A program made the translations under genes and the position numbers. DNA of 44,514 nucleotides from positions 1 to 44,514 of the forward strand of contig JAKSCL010000048.1 in NCBI GenBank assembly GCA_022360615.1, written 5' to 3'. The notes below the pieces were generated by a model. That model saw only the letters and a program-made list of their open reading frames with translations, made no database searches and had not been told where the DNA came from. Shown piece after piece: positions 18,545 through 43,332 of the stretch. This DNA is from Hyphomicrobiales bacterium. Its GTDB lineage: Bacteria > Pseudomonadota > Alphaproteobacteria > Rhizobiales > JAKSCL01. Each line of letters starts with the position of its first letter. Within the stretch, counting starts at the first letter, position 1.

Positions 18545-19282
18545 TCAATAGATCACATAGCGCAGACCGACGCGGAACTCGTTCGCTGTCAGATCGTCGA
18601 ATTCGACCGTATCGCCATTCACGTCCGGATCGGTTTCAACCTCGCCGAAATCGACATAGCGATAGTTCGCATCAAGGATCAAATGGTCCGAAAAGGCGTA
18701 GCTTACCCCAGCCATCAACGCGTAAGCAAAGTTCGTCTCCGAATTGCTTTCAAGATTCGTCGTTGAACCGTCTGGATTCACGCCGAACACGTCATCGACC
18801 GCGACATGGGCGAAGCCGACACCGCCGCCCACATAAGGTGAGAAGCCGTGAAAATAGCCAAGGTCGAGGTAACCGTTGACAAGACCGGTCCAGGTCGTGA
18901 TCGCCGATTCCTCGCGCGAGAACTGCACGCCCGAGCAGCTAAAGCACCGCGTCCCACCTGAAAAGTCGCTCTCGAAACGATAGTCGATCGTGATATCGCC
19001 GCGCAGAAACTTGTTGAACTTGTAGCCGAAGCCCGCACCAACCAGGAAGGTGTCGTCGAGATCTTCCTTTTCGAAATGGACTTTCCCATTACCGAAGGTT
19101 ACGTCGGGATCATCGAAATCGACATATCCGATATCGCCGCGGATATACCAGCCCGAAACGTCTTCGAGGATCGGCGGCACCAGTGGTGGTTCGACAATTG
19201 GCGGAAGGTCCGCCGCGAAAGCCGGCGTCGCAGCGAAAGCCGCAACGGCAGCGATATACTTAAGGCTACGATGGCTGCCCAT
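18545..19282 (-). CDS. Outer-membrane beta-barrel (Omp25/LomR-like porin family)
   Basis: The 245-residue protein has a Sec signal peptide (about 1-23, ending AFA), a Pro-rich linker (LPPIVEPPLVPP) and then alternating strands typical of an eight-stranded OmpA-like barrel (GWYIRGDIGYVDF, FLVGAGFGYKFNKFLRGDITIDY, FSPYVGGGVGFAHV, FAYALMAGVSYAF). It ends with aromatic Tyr (RVGLRYVIY), the usual C-terminal barrel signature. Two cysteines (CFSCSG) in one loop could be disulfide-bonded. This is the general type of Brucella Omp25 and rhizobial RopB. A perfect CtrA-type site lies 81 nt upstream and a near match further up. Confidence 0.9.
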   Translation of the reverse strand: MGSHRSLKYIAAVAAFAATPAFAADLPPIVEPPLVPPILEDVSGWYIRGDIGYVDFDDPDVTFGNGKVHFEKEDLDDTFLVGAGFGYKFNKFLRGDITIDYRFESDFSGGTRCFSCSGVQFSREESAITTWTGLVNGYLDLGYFHGFSPYVGGGVGFAHVAVDDVFGVNPDGSTTNLESNSETNFAYALMAGVSYAFSDHLILDANYRYVDFGEVETDPDVNGDTVEFDDLTANEFRVGLRYVIY

Positions 19283-19362: not shown

Positions 19363-19378
19363 TTAAGTTACACTTAAC
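19363..19378 (-). promoter_or_regulatory. Perfect CtrA-type site upstream of beta-barrel gene
   Basis: TTAA-GTTACAC-TTAA, followed by C, is an exact match to the CtrA recognition sequence TTAA-N7-TTAAC. It begins 81 nt upstream of the beta-barrel start codon, where CtrA commonly overlaps the -35 region of its targets. A TATTTC-type -10 lies about 12 nt downstream on the minus strand. Confidence 0.65.
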
Positions 19379-24942: not shown

Positions 24943-26265
24943 TCAACAACCGTTGGCCGAAGCCGCCTCCCGGGCACGAGCGAGGACTGTTTCGGGCGCA
25001 TTGCCATGCTTCGACATCAGCTCCTGAAGTGAAGAGCAGGCCGCATCCCTCTGGTCGAGCTCCGCGAGTGAAAGCGCGAGCCCGAGAAGGCTTTCGGCCC
25101 GCTTCGAACCGCCCTCGTACTTCGTGTAAGTGGTCAGGAAGGCATCCGCTGCATCCCTATACTGCGAACGGGCGAAGTGGGTTTCACCGATCAGATACTG
25201 TGCATCGCCCGCAAGTGAATGCTGCGGGAAATCGGTGATGAACTGACGGAGCGCGGCTTCCGCGGCACTGTGGTTCTGGGCCGCATAAAGCGCGTGGGCC
25301 CGCTCATAGTCGACGAAGGGGTCGCGCGTGTTGATCGCCGCCGTCTGCTGGTTGGGGAGCTGCGAGCTCTCAACCGGCGCGTTGAGCGGCGGTACGCTCT
25401 GCGGCTGCGGGCTCGCGAGGCCCGGCTGCTGCCCCGCATCAAGCGCGCCTTGCCAGTTCAGCCCATCGGGAGAAGCCAAGCCGGACGGCCGTTGGCCCTG
25501 ATGGACGGGTTGCTGGCCTTGCACTTGAGGCTGCCCCTGAAACTGCGGCGGCTGCTGAAACGGCTGTTGGCCCTGAAACTGTGGCTGACCTTGAAACTGC
25601 TGGTTCGGGACCGGTATGTCCGCCGGCGGCAATTGCCGTTGCAGCAAATTTGGATTGCGGGCAAGCGCCGAGAGATCAAGCGGCTGGCCGGGTGCGGCTG
25701 GCTGCGAAACAATGGGTTCCTGATTGTATCCGGGATTTGGGTTGCCCGGGATCTGGCCGAGCACCTGCGGTCCAGGTGCCGGACCCGTGAAGCCGTCTTG
25801 CGTGAGCCCTTGCGGAACCGGCCCAACAGCAGGCTGGCCCGGACCGCCCGGCAGAACCGGAGTTGGGTCGGGAAGCGCGGTAATGCCGCCGCCCTGCAAA
25901 TCGCGGAAACGGAACTCGGTATCTTCACGGAAGCGGCGAAGCTGCTCTTCAAGCTGCTGAACCCTGAATGACGATTCCTGCACCTGGCCAGTCAGGGTGC
26001 GTATCTGCTCCTCAAGCGAATCGATCCGGAGAGAAAGCTGTGCAATCGTTTGCGGCGTCGCGCCCGGCGCACCGCCCTGCTGCGCGCCAGGATTATTGAT
26101 CATGCCGTAAACCTGCGCCTCAAGCCGCTGAACCCTGTCCTGCAGAAAAATAAAATCCTGCGGCGTTTGCGCTTTCGCCTCGCCGAATGCCATCACGGCG
26201 GCCGTGGAGGCAAAAAGCCCGGTCAACAGGGCTTGCTTAAGGATCTTAAACTGTATCATCGGCAC
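24943..26265 (-). CDS. cpoB: Tol-Pal accessory protein CpoB (YbgF)
   Basis: CpoB is the periplasmic partner that couples Tol-Pal action with peptidoglycan synthesis at division. The 440-residue protein is longer than E. coli CpoB (263). It has a signal peptide (about 1-32, ending AKA), an N-terminal trimeric coiled coil (about 38-120) and a very long Pro/Gln-rich linker. Around residues 221-257 that linker contains tandem Q-F-Q-G-Q-P units. The C-terminal domain (about 320-435) is made of TPR repeats (GDAQYLIGETHFARSQYRDAA). It is downstream of pal, after a 285 nt gap with a terminator, and upstream of tilS. Confidence 0.93.
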   Translation of the reverse strand: MPMIQFKILKQALLTGLFASTAAVMAFGEAKAQTPQDFIFLQDRVQRLEAQVYGMINNPGAQQGGAPGATPQTIAQLSLRIDSLEEQIRTLTGQVQESSFRVQQLEEQLRRFREDTEFRFRDLQGGGITALPDPTPVLPGGPGQPAVGPVPQGLTQDGFTGPAPGPQVLGQIPGNPNPGYNQEPIVSQPAAPGQPLDLSALARNPNLLQRQLPPADIPVPNQQFQGQPQFQGQQPFQQPPQFQGQPQVQGQQPVHQGQRPSGLASPDGLNWQGALDAGQQPGLASPQPQSVPPLNAPVESSQLPNQQTAAINTRDPFVDYERAHALYAAQNHSAAEAALRQFITDFPQHSLAGDAQYLIGETHFARSQYRDAADAFLTTYTKYEGGSKRAESLLGLALSLAELDQRDAACSSLQELMSKHGNAPETVLARAREAASANGC

Positions 26266-26550: not shown

Positions 26551-27036
26551 TTAACTCGAGACATTGTTGATAACGGATACGGACCTGCGGTTCTGCGACC
26601 AGCAGCTTTCGTCGTTACAGACGGCCACCGGACGCTCCTTACCGTAGGAAATCGTATTCAACCGGCTGGCATCAACGCCGCGCGAGACAAGGTAATCGCG
26701 CACCGCAGTTGAGCGTCTTGCACCAAGACCGAGGTTGTATTCGCGCGTACCGCGCTCATCGGCGTGACCTTCAATGGTCAACTGGTATTGCGGATAAAGA
26801 GCGAGCCACTGCGCCTGCTTGTCCAACGTGGCCCGCGCCGTCGGGCTGAGTGTGGTCTGATCGACGGCGAAGAAAACGCGGTCGCCCACATTCACGACGA
26901 AATCCTGCACGGAGCCTGGCTGCACAGCGCCACCGGCCACATCCCTGTTGTTTGCCGCGCATCCGGCGACGAAAAGCGCGGCCACGAGAGCGAGAGTTAA
27001 AGTACGAAAGCGCCGCGATATTTCGTTGCGCAACAT
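26551..27036 (-). CDS. pal: Peptidoglycan-associated lipoprotein Pal
   Basis: Pal is the outer-membrane lipoprotein that links the membrane to peptidoglycan and works with TolB and the TolQRA complex during constriction. The 161-residue protein has a lipoprotein signal with lipobox VAGC, Cys at 26, then a short linker and an OmpA-like domain (about 55-155) with the peptidoglycan-binding motif TIEGHADERGTREYNLGLGARR. I chose ATG 27036 over a GTG at 27045 because TGGAG lies at the right distance. Two cysteines (CNDESC) near the end probably form a disulfide. A perfect CtrA-type site is 83 nt upstream. Confidence 0.97.
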   Translation of the reverse strand: MLRNEISRRFRTLTLALVAALFVAGCAANNRDVAGGAVQPGSVQDFVVNVGDRVFFAVDQTTLSPTARATLDKQAQWLALYPQYQLTIEGHADERGTREYNLGLGARRSTAVRDYLVSRGVDASRLNTISYGKERPVAVCNDESCWSQNRRSVSVINNVSS

Positions 27037-27118
27037 GGCGGTCACTCCAATTCGACCAATTCCGTAAACGTTTCGGAAACCTAGGCAGTGGCGGTTAACG
27101 ACGGGTGAGAAAAACTAG

Positions 27119-27133
27119 TTAAGCCCTGGTTAA
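27119..27133 (-). promoter_or_regulatory. Perfect CtrA-type site upstream of pal
   Basis: TTAA-GCCCTGG-TTAA, an exact TTAA-N7-TTAA palindrome, starts 83 nt upstream of the pal start and lies in the short gap after tolB. The same spacing is seen upstream of the beta-barrel gene. A second TTAAC is at 27095. Together these suggest pal has its own CtrA-linked promoter inside the tol operon. Confidence 0.6.
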
Positions 27134-27164
27134 AGGACGCGCTCCGGGTTCTATCGGTGCGCCG

Positions 27165-28544
27165 TCAGTTAAGCAAGGGCGACCAGGCCGGATCGGACGC
27201 GAATGATGGCGTCGGCACCTTCTGGAGATTGAATCCTGTCAAATCCACGCTCCAAAGCTGCGGGCCTCCGGCCTCCCCTGGCACCTCCCGGAAGAACATG
27301 AGAACGCGACCATTCGGGGCCCAAGTGGGGCCCTCATTGTGAAAACCTTCGGTCAAAACCCGTTCACCAGAGCCATCTGGGCGCATTACGCCGATCAAAA
27401 ACTTGCCCTGATGCAATTTTGTAAAGGCGATGAGATCACCGCGCGGCGACCACACGGGCGTCGAATACCGCCCGTCGCCGAAACTGATGCGCTGCGGGTT
27501 CGAACCGTCGGCATTCATCACATAAAGTTGTTGTGATCCACCACGGTCGGACTCAAAAACGATCCGCCGCCCGTCAGGCGAGAAGGACGGGGCGGTGTCG
27601 ATCGACGGTGAATTCGTCAAGCGCGTCGTCCGCCGGCTTCTCAAGTCCATCGAATAGATGTTGGCATTGCCGCCCTGCTGCAGGCTCATGACAACCCGCT
27701 GACCGTCGGGTGAAAACCGTGGAGCAAAGGTCATGCCTGGGAAGTTGCCGACGATCTCGCGCTGCCCGGTTTCGATGTTGAGCAGGAAAACGCGCGGATC
27801 AGCGCCCGTGAAAGCCATATAGGTGATGTCCTGGCTCGTCGGGCTGAAGCGCGGGGTCAGGACCAGATCGCCACCATTCGTCAGATAGCGCACATTCGCG
27901 CCGTCCTGATCCATGATCGCGAGCCGCTTGCGCCGGTTGTCCTTCGGGCCGGTCTCGTCGACAAAGACGATGCGCGTATCGAAATAGCCCTTCTCACCCG
28001 TCAGCCGCTCATAGATGGCATCCGAAATAATGTGAGCGACGCGCCGCCAGTTCTCTGGCGTTGTGAAGAATTGCTGGCCGGTCATCTGCTGGCCCGCGAA
28101 CACGTCCCAAAGCCGGAACTCCGCCTTCAAGCGCCCATCGGGCTGCACCGTGATTCGGCCCGTAACGAGCGCCTGGGCATTGATGATTCGCCAATCGCCG
28201 AAGCGCGGCGCGGCGTCGAAATTCTCAATCCGCTCGACAAAGGCGTTCTCATCGACCGGTGTAAAAAGCCCCGAGCGTCGCAAATTGGTCTCGATCACAT
28301 CAGTGATATCACCGGCAACCTGCGCATCGCGGCCGCCGCCTGCGACGAAATCCGGGATCGCAATCGGGAGCGGCTGAATATTGCCCTCCGTGATATCGAT
28401 CCTCAGAAGCGCGCTTGCCGGCGAGGAAAAAGCAAGGAAAGTCAAGACGAGACAGGTCACCGCCGCCACGCGTGAGATCAAAGCGCCGGAGGAGCCAATG
28501 GGTCTGAATTTCTGAACGTTCATCATCTGATTGATTGGCATCAT
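27165..28544 (-). CDS. tolB: Periplasmic Tol-Pal protein TolB
   Basis: TolB is the periplasmic hub that binds Pal and TolA. The 459-residue protein has a signal peptide (about 20-46, ending ASA), an N-terminal alpha/beta domain (about 50-180) and a six-bladed beta-propeller with WD40-like PD40 repeats, visible as [25 protein letters not shown] and AWSP. The Met-rich start ([10 protein letters not shown]) leaves the exact start codon open. It is 43 nt after tolA. Confidence 0.95.
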
Positions 28545-28587: not shown

Positions 28588-29487
28588 TTATCGAAGCATC
28601 TGGCTCGGGTCGAAGCGCACTTCGACCGTCTGCCAGATATCAAACTTGTCTTGTGGTAGCTGATCGTAAGGCTGACAGCGGCGCACGGCGCGCAACGCGC
28701 TGTCCCCGGCCGCTTGACCGGCGATGCCCGGCGCCGATTCGACAATGAACGGCACGCCGACAAGATTGCCGCCCCGATCCAATTGCATGCGAACCTTGAC
28801 GATCAACGCATCAGCGTTGATGGCGCCAACCGGAGGGCTCCAGCACTCCGCTATCCGTTGTCTCAGATAATCCATCTCACTCTGCGTGATCCGGGCGTCG
28901 TTTGCATTCGGCGCACCGAGCGAAGCTTGCTGATTCTGCGGCAAGCTCTGGGTCGTTGCCTGCGGCGCGGGCTGATCGGGCGTCCTATCAAGAAGTGCGG
29001 CAATTCTGTTCGGATCGAACTGGTTATTCTCCAGCTCAGGCTCGGGCGGCCGCTGAGGCCGGTCAGGAATGTCCCGCGGACGGCTTACGGGTGTCGGAAC
29101 GTTTGTTTCCTCGGCGGGCTCGGCCTCGGGCGCGAGTTCCGCCTCGGGCGCGGGCGTTTCGGCTTCAGAAGCGGGTTCCGGCGCCTGGACAGGGATCGGC
29201 TCAGGTTCTGGAGGCAAAGCGGCGAGCTCCGTCTCCTGGCTTTCGGGCTCAGGCGCTTCGACAGCCTCGGGTTGCTCCACTTCGGCAACAGGGGCCGAAG
29301 GTTCCACCTCCGCCTCACCTTCCGCAACACCTGCTGTAATGCGGGTGAACTCCTCGATCGAGACGACGTCGACAGGTACGGATTCCATGCCGGAAATGTC
29401 GAATGCATCGGGCGCTGGGAAAGACATCAGCGACGCGGCGATGATGGCCACATGGGCGGTGGAGGATACGGTCAAGCCGACACGCAT
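28588..29487 (-). CDS. tolA: Tol-Pal membrane-spanning protein TolA
   Basis: TolA bridges the inner membrane TolQR motor and the periplasmic TolB-Pal complex. The 299-residue protein has one N-terminal membrane segment (about 5-23), a long Pro/Glu/Ala-rich extended middle (about 55-185) in place of the Ala/Lys helix of E. coli TolA, and a small C-terminal domain (about 200-299) with paired cysteines (AECWSPP and RRCQPY). This is the alphaproteobacterial form. It begins three bases after tolR. Confidence 0.9.
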   Translation of the reverse strand: MRVGLTVSSTAHVAIIAASLMSFPAPDAFDISGMESVPVDVVSIEEFTRITAGVAEGEAEVEPSAPVAEVEQPEAVEAPEPESQETELAALPPEPEPIPVQAPEPASEAETPAPEAELAPEAEPAEETNVPTPVSRPRDIPDRPQRPPEPELENNQFDPNRIAALLDRTPDQPAPQATTQSLPQNQQASLGAPNANDARITQSEMDYLRQRIAECWSPPVGAINADALIVKVRMQLDRGGNLVGVPFIVESAPGIAGQAAGDSALRAVRRCQPYDQLPQDKFDIWQTVEVRFDPSQMLR

Positions 29488-29490
29488 GGT

Positions 29491-29940
29491 CTAACCGCCC
29501 TCGAGCTCCTGGTCGGTGACAAGGCCGATGCGGTTGAAACCGGCACCGCTGATGCGGCCCATGACGCGCATGACAGCTCCGTAATCCACACCTTGATCGC
29601 CGCGCACGAAAATACGCTGGTCGTAGCCCTGATCGGCGATCGCCTCGAGGCGGGGGACGATTTCCTCAATCGTCACCTCGGTGTCCTGGAAAAAGATACG
29701 GCCTTGTGAATCGACCGACACCGCAAGCGGCTCCTGATCGCCTTCAAGCGGATTGGCGCGCGTCTCGGGAAGCTCGATCGGAACGCCGACGGTCAAAAGG
29801 GGTGCGGCGACCATGAAAATGATCAACAGAACCAGCATCACATCCACAAAGGGCGTGACGTTGATTTCCGACATGGGCGGTGTCCGCCGGCGGCCCCGGC
29901 CGCGGCTTCCCCCACCCGCATTCACTGTCCCCATTCCCAT
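29491..29940 (-). CDS. tolR: Tol-Pal motor protein TolR
   Basis: TolR is an ExbD-type subunit of the proton-driven TolQR motor. The 149-residue protein has a basic cytoplasmic start, one membrane helix carrying the essential Asp (D33 in PFVDVMLVLLIIFM) and a periplasmic domain. The N-terminal PPMSEINVTPFVDV motif is characteristic. It lies 41 nt after tolQ and three bases before tolA. Confidence 0.96.
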   Translation of the reverse strand: MGMGTVNAGGGSRGRGRRRTPPMSEINVTPFVDVMLVLLIIFMVAAPLLTVGVPIELPETRANPLEGDQEPLAVSVDSQGRIFFQDTEVTIEEIVPRLEAIADQGYDQRIFVRGDQGVDYGAVMRVMGRISGAGFNRIGLVTDQELEGG

Positions 29941-29981: not shown

Positions 29982-30656
29982 TCAGTACCTGTCATCAATT
30001 TGGCGCGAGAGTATGGCAGAAAACTCATCGGCAAAGCCCTCAAGCCGCGTCGCATGACGGTTGGCCATATCGGAAAACTTGTTATAGGCAGCAACGGCTG
30101 GAATCGCGGCGACAAGGCCGAGCGCGGTCGCAAAAAGCGCCTCTGCGATCCCCGGTGCAACGACCGCGAGATTCGTATCCTGCGACACGGCAATCGCCTG
30201 AAATGCCGTCATGATCCCCCAGACCGTTCCAAACAGCCCGATAAAAGGCGATGTGGAGCCAACGGTCGCGAGAAACAAGAGTTGTTTTTCAAGCCGGTTG
30301 GTCTCGCGCGTGATCGCCACATCCATGACTTTCTCGATCCGCTGCTGCAGGCCGGTAAAACTTTTCACCTGCGATTCCTGCGTGCGTTTCCACTCCCGCA
30401 TGGCGGCGACAAAGACGGCGGCGAGGGAGTGATTCTGCTTGGCTGACAAGGAGCGGTAGAGTTCTTCGAGTGAATGTCCGGACCAGAAGATCTTCTCGAA
30501 TTCGTCGGCAGCCCGATTAGCGGAACGGAAAGACAGCCATTTGTCGACCATGATGGCCCAGCTCCACACCGAAGCGAAGATAAGCCCGACCATGACGGCC
30601 TGCACCACAATATGCGCCTGCAGAAACAGGCCAATGATAGTAAAATCACCTTCCAA
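29982..30656 (-). CDS. tolQ: Tol-Pal motor protein TolQ
   Basis: TolQ is the ExbB/MotA-type channel subunit of the TolQR motor. The 224-residue protein has three membrane helices (about 15-35, 125-150, 165-190) and the conserved Gly- and Thr-rich GTVWGIMTAF and IAEALFATALGLVAAIPAVAAYN stretches. No ATG gives a sensible N-terminus. I chose the TTG at 30656, preceded by AGGAG 12 nt upstream, because it starts just before the first conserved segment (GLFLQAHIVVQAVM); an upstream in-frame ATG at 30821 would add a basic unconserved extension. It lies 240 nt after ybgC. Confidence 0.93.
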   Translation of the reverse strand: MEGDFTIIGLFLQAHIVVQAVMVGLIFASVWSWAIMVDKWLSFRSANRAADEFEKIFWSGHSLEELYRSLSAKQNHSLAAVFVAAMREWKRTQESQVKSFTGLQQRIEKVMDVAITRETNRLEKQLLFLATVGSTSPFIGLFGTVWGIMTAFQAIAVSQDTNLAVVAPGIAEALFATALGLVAAIPAVAAYNKFSDMANRHATRLEGFADEFSAILSRQIDDRY

Positions 30657-30896
30657 GGGTCGCCTAAGCTCCTGTTCGATGGCCGCAGCCGACCGGCAAG
30701 GAGAAACCCTTGCCCCGGCGAAACGCCGCGACCCCTTTTCGGCCACCAATGCGCCCGGGCCGAAGGGGCGCGACGACTGCCTCGCGAATGTGTTTAAACT
30801 TCGACGGCCATTCGGCCCCAAAATCCGTTATTTTAGCCCGGGGAACTAGCGCCGATTATGGTTAAGGAAGGCTTGAATGCGAAGACATGAGCGCCG

Positions 30897-31376
30897 TCAA
30901 GCGCTGTTCTCTTCCCGATAAAGAAAAGAGACAAAGACGTCCTGGACCGGTTTTGGAAAGCGGCGGGGCCTGCCTTCACGGCTAATGGGCACGACAAGCA
31001 CGTTCATCGAAAAAACGGTGGTTTCACCGCGTTCGATTTTCTGACGGGCAAGAAAAGAGGCACCCCGCATCTCGACAAGACGGGTTCTGACGATGAGGAG
31101 ATCGTCGATCATGGCCGGATGCATGAAATCTGCTTCGATGCGTTTCACCGCATAGGCATCCGGCCCGCCCTCGGTGGCGCGAAGGTCTTTGTGCTCGACG
31201 CCAATAAGACGCAGAAAATCCGAGCGGCCCCTTTCGCAGAACCGGATATAGCTTGCGTGATAGACGACGCCCGAATGATCCGTGTCTTCGTAATACACCC
31301 GCACCGGCATCACATGTTCGCGATTGACGATGCGGCCGGCCAAATCGGGCCAATGGTAATCCTGGTCCGGGTTCAT
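30897..31376 (-). CDS. ybgC: Acyl-CoA thioesterase YbgC
   Basis: The 159-residue hotdog-fold protein carries the YbgC signature DTDHSGVVYHASYIRF with the catalytic Asp and the FCERGRSDFLR stretch. YbgC thioesters are linked to phospholipid metabolism and its gene heads the tol-pal operon in many proteobacteria. The start ATG at 31376 overlaps the upstream phosphoesterase stop (ATGA), so the two are translationally coupled. Confidence 0.93.
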   Translation of the reverse strand: MNPDQDYHWPDLAGRIVNREHVMPVRVYYEDTDHSGVVYHASYIRFCERGRSDFLRLIGVEHKDLRATEGGPDAYAVKRIEADFMHPAMIDDLLIVRTRLVEMRGASFLARQKIERGETTVFSMNVLVVPISREGRPRRFPKPVQDVFVSFLYREENSA

Positions 31377-42681: not shown

Positions 42682-43008
42682 TCAACGTGGCTGACGGGAA
42701 AGCACCTGTTCAACCGCGGCAATCGCCTGGTCGACACGTTTCATCGCATTCGCGTTCGCATCCCGGAGCGTCCGGTTTTCGTCCGAAAGCTGATCGATCG
42801 TCTCAGCCATGCGCGCCCGGTCGGTTTCCAATTGCTGGATCTGGATTTCCAACTGTTCGGCCGATTTAACCGCGTGGCCGTACTTGCTTGTGAGCGCTTC
42901 AAGGGCTCGAAGTGCCAGTTCAAGTCTTTGACTCGCCGCATTGACGCGTTCGCTTGACGCCCCTTGACCGGCTCCTTCCTGCGAAATTCCAGGAACCCCG
43001 TCCGCCAT
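42682..43008 (-). CDS. DUF4164 coiled-coil protein
   Basis: The 108-residue protein is mostly a single heptad coiled coil (about 20-100, LALRALEALTSKYGHAVKSA, LETDRARMAETIDQL), matching DUF4164, which lies upstream of zapA in many Hyphomicrobiales. A role in helping ZapA or in division is inferred from position. I chose ATG 43008; the in-frame ATG at 43068 would add 20 unconserved residues. Confidence 0.85.
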   Translation of the reverse strand: MADGVPGISQEGAGQGASSERVNAASQRLELALRALEALTSKYGHAVKSAEQLEIQIQQLETDRARMAETIDQLSDENRTLRDANANAMKRVDQAIAAVEQVLSRQPR

Positions 43009-43208
43009 ACTTTCCCTAAACCGCACCTGTGACGCCAACGAACCCAACCCCGCCGTCGCGATTCTCACCTAACCTGCTAGAGGATGATACGCTATTGCGC
43101 ACGAAACAGAAGAGTAAACAGGCGGTTAATCCCCTTTGATGAAATCTTGTTCCACGGAGCGCGGCACAGGCCGCCGCGACCGTACGCAGCAGCCATATGG
43201 TTCCTCCG

Positions 43209-43236: not shown

Positions 43237-43332
43237 TCGCGCTCGCAATCAGCGGAAATGGTGAATACTCACAAGTCACACGCCGTTTCCACAAGCCCCC
43301 AACGATCAAAGCAGACGCAGGTTCTAAACCGG

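Follow-up and report, generated by a model that had tools for sequence, protein, structure and literature searches.

CtrA is the master cell-cycle regulator of alphaproteobacteria, and the question raised by this locus is whether it controls pal, the gene of the peptidoglycan-associated lipoprotein, apart from the tol genes beside it. The window (the whole stretch of 44,514 nucleotides analysed, from a Hyphomicrobiales bacterium) carries the gene order ybgC-tolQRAB-pal-cpoB-tilS-ftsH, and an exact TTAA-N7-TTAA palindrome of the CtrA type lies between tolB and pal. In several alphaproteobacteria pal-cpoB is a transcription unit separate from tolQRAB (PMC9275681).

The tolB-pal gap and its palindrome

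The gene calls of the locus were borne out by family searches, the exception being tolA, which has no family match. On the minus strand are found the thioesterase gene ybgC (30897-31376; slightly under the cut-off of TIGR02799 and above that of TIGR00051), tolQ (29982-30821; TIGR02796), tolR (29491-29940; TIGR02801), a tolA-like gene assigned by position and composition (28588-29487), tolB (27165-28544; TIGR02800), pal (26551-27036; TIGR02802, 141.5 bits with a cut-off of 125.35) and cpoB/ybgF (24943-26265; TIGR02795). The tolB stop codon occupies 27165-27167, the pal ATG begins at 27036 and is preceded by a Shine-Dalgarno-like GGAG at about 27045-27048, and the gap between the two genes is 128 bp. 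Presumably cpoB is co-transcribed with pal, forming a pal-cpoB unit like that described in PMC9275681.

The palindrome, TTAAGCCCTGGTTAA, occupies 27119-27133, inside the gap, with 27119 at a distance of 83 nt from the first base of the pal ATG. An earlier note on this DNA had placed it there and had set two such sites in the window against about 0.1 expected. The coordinates were re-checked and hold, and so does the excess: the window contains exactly two exact TTAA-N7-TTAA sites, starting at 27119 and 19363, while dinucleotide shuffles of the window contain 0.05 on average and reached two in none of 100 trials. Across the 3.9-Mb genome the word occurs 16 times, compared with 7 occurrences for a 6-nt spacer and 10 for an 8-nt spacer, a modest enrichment.

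A consensus scan of 26900-27400 found neither an intrinsic terminator nor an ordinary sigma-70 promoter with a good -35/-10 pair.

Architecture and conservation of the pal promoter element

Upstream regions were gathered via Pal from Hyphomicrobiales relatives and similar sequences were removed, leaving 82; this reduces relatedness within the set and does not remove it, and one Azospirillum record from outside the order is included. TTAACC is present on the pal strand in 62 of the 82 upstreams, compared with 3.6 in shuffled sequences (maximum 9), and none of three control words is comparably enriched. TTAA-N20-TTAA occurs in 24 of the 82 against 0.36 in shuffles. A matrix built from the 63 upstreams that could be matched consists of half-sites at -24 (TTAACCR), -11 (KKAAC) and 0 (TTAACC), followed by a conserved TA at +15/+16, consistent with a -10 box; by the matrix threshold the remaining 19 relatives lack the element.

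In the window the conserved element extends on the minus strand from 27133 to 27078, with its conserved core from 27122 to 27093, and reads TTAACCAGGGC-TTAACTAGTTTTT-CTCACCCGTCG-TTAACC...TAGGTT. Its half-sites have their 5' ends at 27133, 27122, 27109 (weak) and 27098 and are spaced by 11, 13 and 11 bp. The most conserved of them, TTAACC at 27093-27098, defines position 0 of the matrix. Counted from it, the two half-sites of the palindrome stand at -35 (27133) and -24 (27122), and 11 bp away is the degenerate middle half-site CTCAC (27105-27109, at -11), a poor match to the KKAAC of relatives that counts against reading the element as a CtrA promoter. The matrix also predicts a -10 element, TAGGTT, at 27078-27083, and transcription of pal is predicted to start near 27071. 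If the conserved TA is taken as -12/-11, the pair formed by the middle half-site and TTAACC would fall at about -38/-27 relative to that start; the four half-sites would then lie at about -62, -51, -38 and -27, all upstream of the -10 box. The arrangement is that of a CtrA-type box, with the exact palindrome and the conserved TTAACC both upstream of the predicted -10.

What is conserved at the pal promoter is not the palindrome as such, which makes up the outer two half-sites of a larger element. The palindrome is exact in 7 of the 82 upstreams (0.30 in shuffles). Its pal-proximal half, at -24, is exact in 24 of the 63 matched promoters, and exact TTAA is found at -35 in 7 of the 63, the window's among them, compared with 0 to 2 at other offsets upstream of -24. 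The boundaries originally given to the site were therefore too narrow: the element continues as far as 27078, and the word conserved best (GGTTAA on the forward strand, 27093-27098) falls outside them.

Since pal upstreams had supplied the training data for the matrix, it was tested by hold-out. In leave-one-out scoring, 59 of the 82 pal upstreams exceed 10 bits, as do 3 of their reverse complements and none of the pal-coding controls. A matrix made without the window and its family gives the window's pal site 15.0 bits, the second-best score among 88,930 positions. When 800 kb of sequence from two relatives was scanned, the two highest scores fell on those genomes' own pal promoters, both of which were in the training set. 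The top held-out match in the window is at 43126-43129 (15.7 bits on the plus strand, 10.0 on the minus strand), between a minus-strand gene for a short coiled-coil protein (42682-43068) and, on the plus strand, a transketolase-like gene that starts at 43258 or 43334 and runs off the window end.

The element is confined in two respects. Only one of 60 pal upstreams from other alphaproteobacterial families exceeds 10 bits, which rules out class-wide conservation. Upstream of tolQ/ybgC, none of 30 relatives passes 10 bits (best 8.2), and the element is absent there in the window too. The earlier note's proposal of a promoter specific to pal is supported by this distribution, an element found order-wide upstream of pal and absent upstream of tolQ/ybgC. 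The same note had made its idea depend on finding the motif upstream of pal in close relatives, and at the level of the order the idea survives: what is kept is the element centred on TTAACC, but the exact palindrome is rare and the element has eroded in the only same-family relative, which retains TTAACC without the full architecture (0.7 bits). A TTAA at the tolB stop of that relative belongs to codons of the tolB C-terminus and was left uncounted.

A group including Bradyrhizobium, Pseudolabrys and Methylobacterium (L024, L048-L077) has a variant pal promoter in which a conserved TCAAGGTTGACGGAACnTTCGCTTAACC replaces the -24 TTAACC.

CtrA and other candidate regulators

The genome encodes a CtrA orthologue (NF045991, 421.7 bits with a cut-off of 350) that is 91% identical to the Caulobacter CtrA sequence used for comparison and identical to it in the recognition-helix region. 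As an internal control, autoregulation of ctrA gave a negative result: there is no strong double site in the 1.4 kb upstream of the gene. The 5' nucleotide of a full CtrA site falls near -35 in Caulobacter, for example at -39 in ctrA P2 (PMC4287350). The pair at pal likewise consists of half-sites 11 bp apart, with its 5' nucleotide at about -38; it differs in that its first half is degenerate and that two more half-sites precede it, at distances of 13 and 24 bp.

The second exact palindrome, at 19363-19377 on the minus strand, serves as a positive control for the CtrA reading. It stands at -95 of an Omp25/31-like outer membrane beta-barrel gene (18545-19282, minus strand; PF13505), so that the second site, too, precedes an envelope gene, as the earlier note had claimed. 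Of 24 Hyphomicrobiales relatives, 23 carry the exact palindrome upstream of this omp gene, in most cases between -77 and -114. The omp promoter shares its geometry with pal: half-sites spaced by 13 and 11 bp and a -10 element 16 nt from the last half-site. In 14 of the 24 relatives a third half-site is present 13 bp upstream.

Other exact sites in the genome adjoin fliX (two), ftsK, flgB/fliO and a chemoreceptor-like gene, and several of the 16 adjoin genes with no evident link to the cell cycle. The two boxes directly upstream of fliX (L007:1500-1552; C69:22560-22611) are 37 bp apart. Another exact site (L001; C16:2729-2743) precedes, by 36 nt, a gene for a FeeM-type N-acyl amino acid synthase, to our knowledge no usual CtrA target.

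There is a precedent for the pairing of regulator and target. In Ehrlichia chaffeensis the ompA promoter is bound by CtrA, which activates the gene (PMC9791040 and PMC9005958); the binding and expression data are credited to Cheng et al. 2011 (cited in PMC9791040), and Ehrlichia OmpA is Pal (PMC4197220). The likeness lies in the pairing of regulator and target; Ehrlichia belongs to the Rickettsiales, its ompA enrichment in ChIP is only 1.30-fold, and PMC9791040 presents the link as Ehrlichia-specific and places ompA outside the C. crescentus CtrA regulon. Within the same order, the main text of a study of S. meliloti CtrA (PMC4433202) does not mention pal, and in Brucella the promoters bound by CtrA include those of genes for the envelope and for division, its loss lowering the amounts of some outer membrane proteins (review PMC10787603). 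Taken together, the 11-bp spacing, the orthologue, the genes beside the other genomic sites, the omp geometry and the published Ehrlichia binding support the original reading of the site as one of the CtrA type.

Even if CtrA binds, it might repress or merely modulate a promoter that is active at a basal level, in which case pal would not be activated at constriction. Caulobacter CtrA does repress where its half-sites cover the -10 (PMC4287350), and a basal supply of Pal seems to be needed because no pal knock-out was obtained in S. meliloti despite attempts (PMC7327166). We consider this reading unlikely, however, since the predicted half-sites at pal are all upstream of the -10 box, which is the activating arrangement, and the scan for a sigma-70 promoter found no good -35/-10 pair.

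It is also quite unlikely that the conserved promoter is bound, in place of CtrA, by another regulator with a preference for TTAAC, whether of the OmpR family or MucR or SciP alone. Candidates exist, as the genome has at least nine full-length OmpR-type regulators, and MucR and SciP act on CtrA promoters (PMC4287350). Nevertheless, the 11-bp spacing and the -10 geometry fit CtrA, as does the presence of the motif at flagellar, ftsK and omp promoters. In Rhodobacter sphaeroides the two-component system CenKR also draws a line between the tolQRAB and pal-cpoB units, with CenR controlling the former but not pal (PMC9275681). The CenR motif, TGA-N8-TGA (PMC9275681), was not found in the tolB-pal gap, nor was GANTC, and control of pal by CenR or by GcrA/CcrM was rejected.

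A chance match without a role is a very improbable reading of the exact palindrome: the window's exact sites number just two and few pal upstreams have the palindrome intact, but only 0.05 sites are expected in the window, the half nearer to pal coincides with the conserved -24 half-site, and exact TTAA is concentrated at -35.

A probable CtrA-dependent supply of Pal

We therefore favor a dedicated CtrA-dependent promoter that drives pal, and probably pal-cpoB, apart from tolQRAB, and judge this reading likely. On sequence grounds the promoter element is real, conserved and pal-specific, and dependence on CtrA is its most likely interpretation. From these grounds we infer CtrA as the binder as well as the activation and timing of pal; timing at constriction would be a further step. 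Phosphorylated CtrA would bind the pair at about -38/-27 together with the upstream half-sites and would contact RNA polymerase at a promoter that has no good -35 box, so that pal would be activated when CtrA is active, and TolQRAB-ybgC would be transcribed without CtrA input. Because the element is conserved before pal across the order and does not recur elsewhere in the tol operon, the supply of Pal is probably timed separately from that of its Tol partners.

A broader version has about an even chance of being correct. Here pal and the nearby Omp25/31-type gene would represent a Hyphomicrobiales-specific class of CtrA promoter (half-sites at -24, -11 and 0, then the -10) from which TolQRAB is excluded, and the abundance of Pal, rather than the Tol motor, would be set by the cell cycle.

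Hyphomicrobiales include polar-growing bacteria. CtrA-type promoters are already known, and the putative pal promoter would be a further case. If the reading is correct, there would be a direct tie between the outer-membrane anchor that acts at constriction and the master cell-cycle regulator, in an order where knock-out of Tol-Pal failed in S. meliloti. It would also give a reason for the transcription of pal apart from tolQRAB in Hyphomicrobiales, and the link between CtrA and pal known from Ehrlichia would not be confined to that genus.
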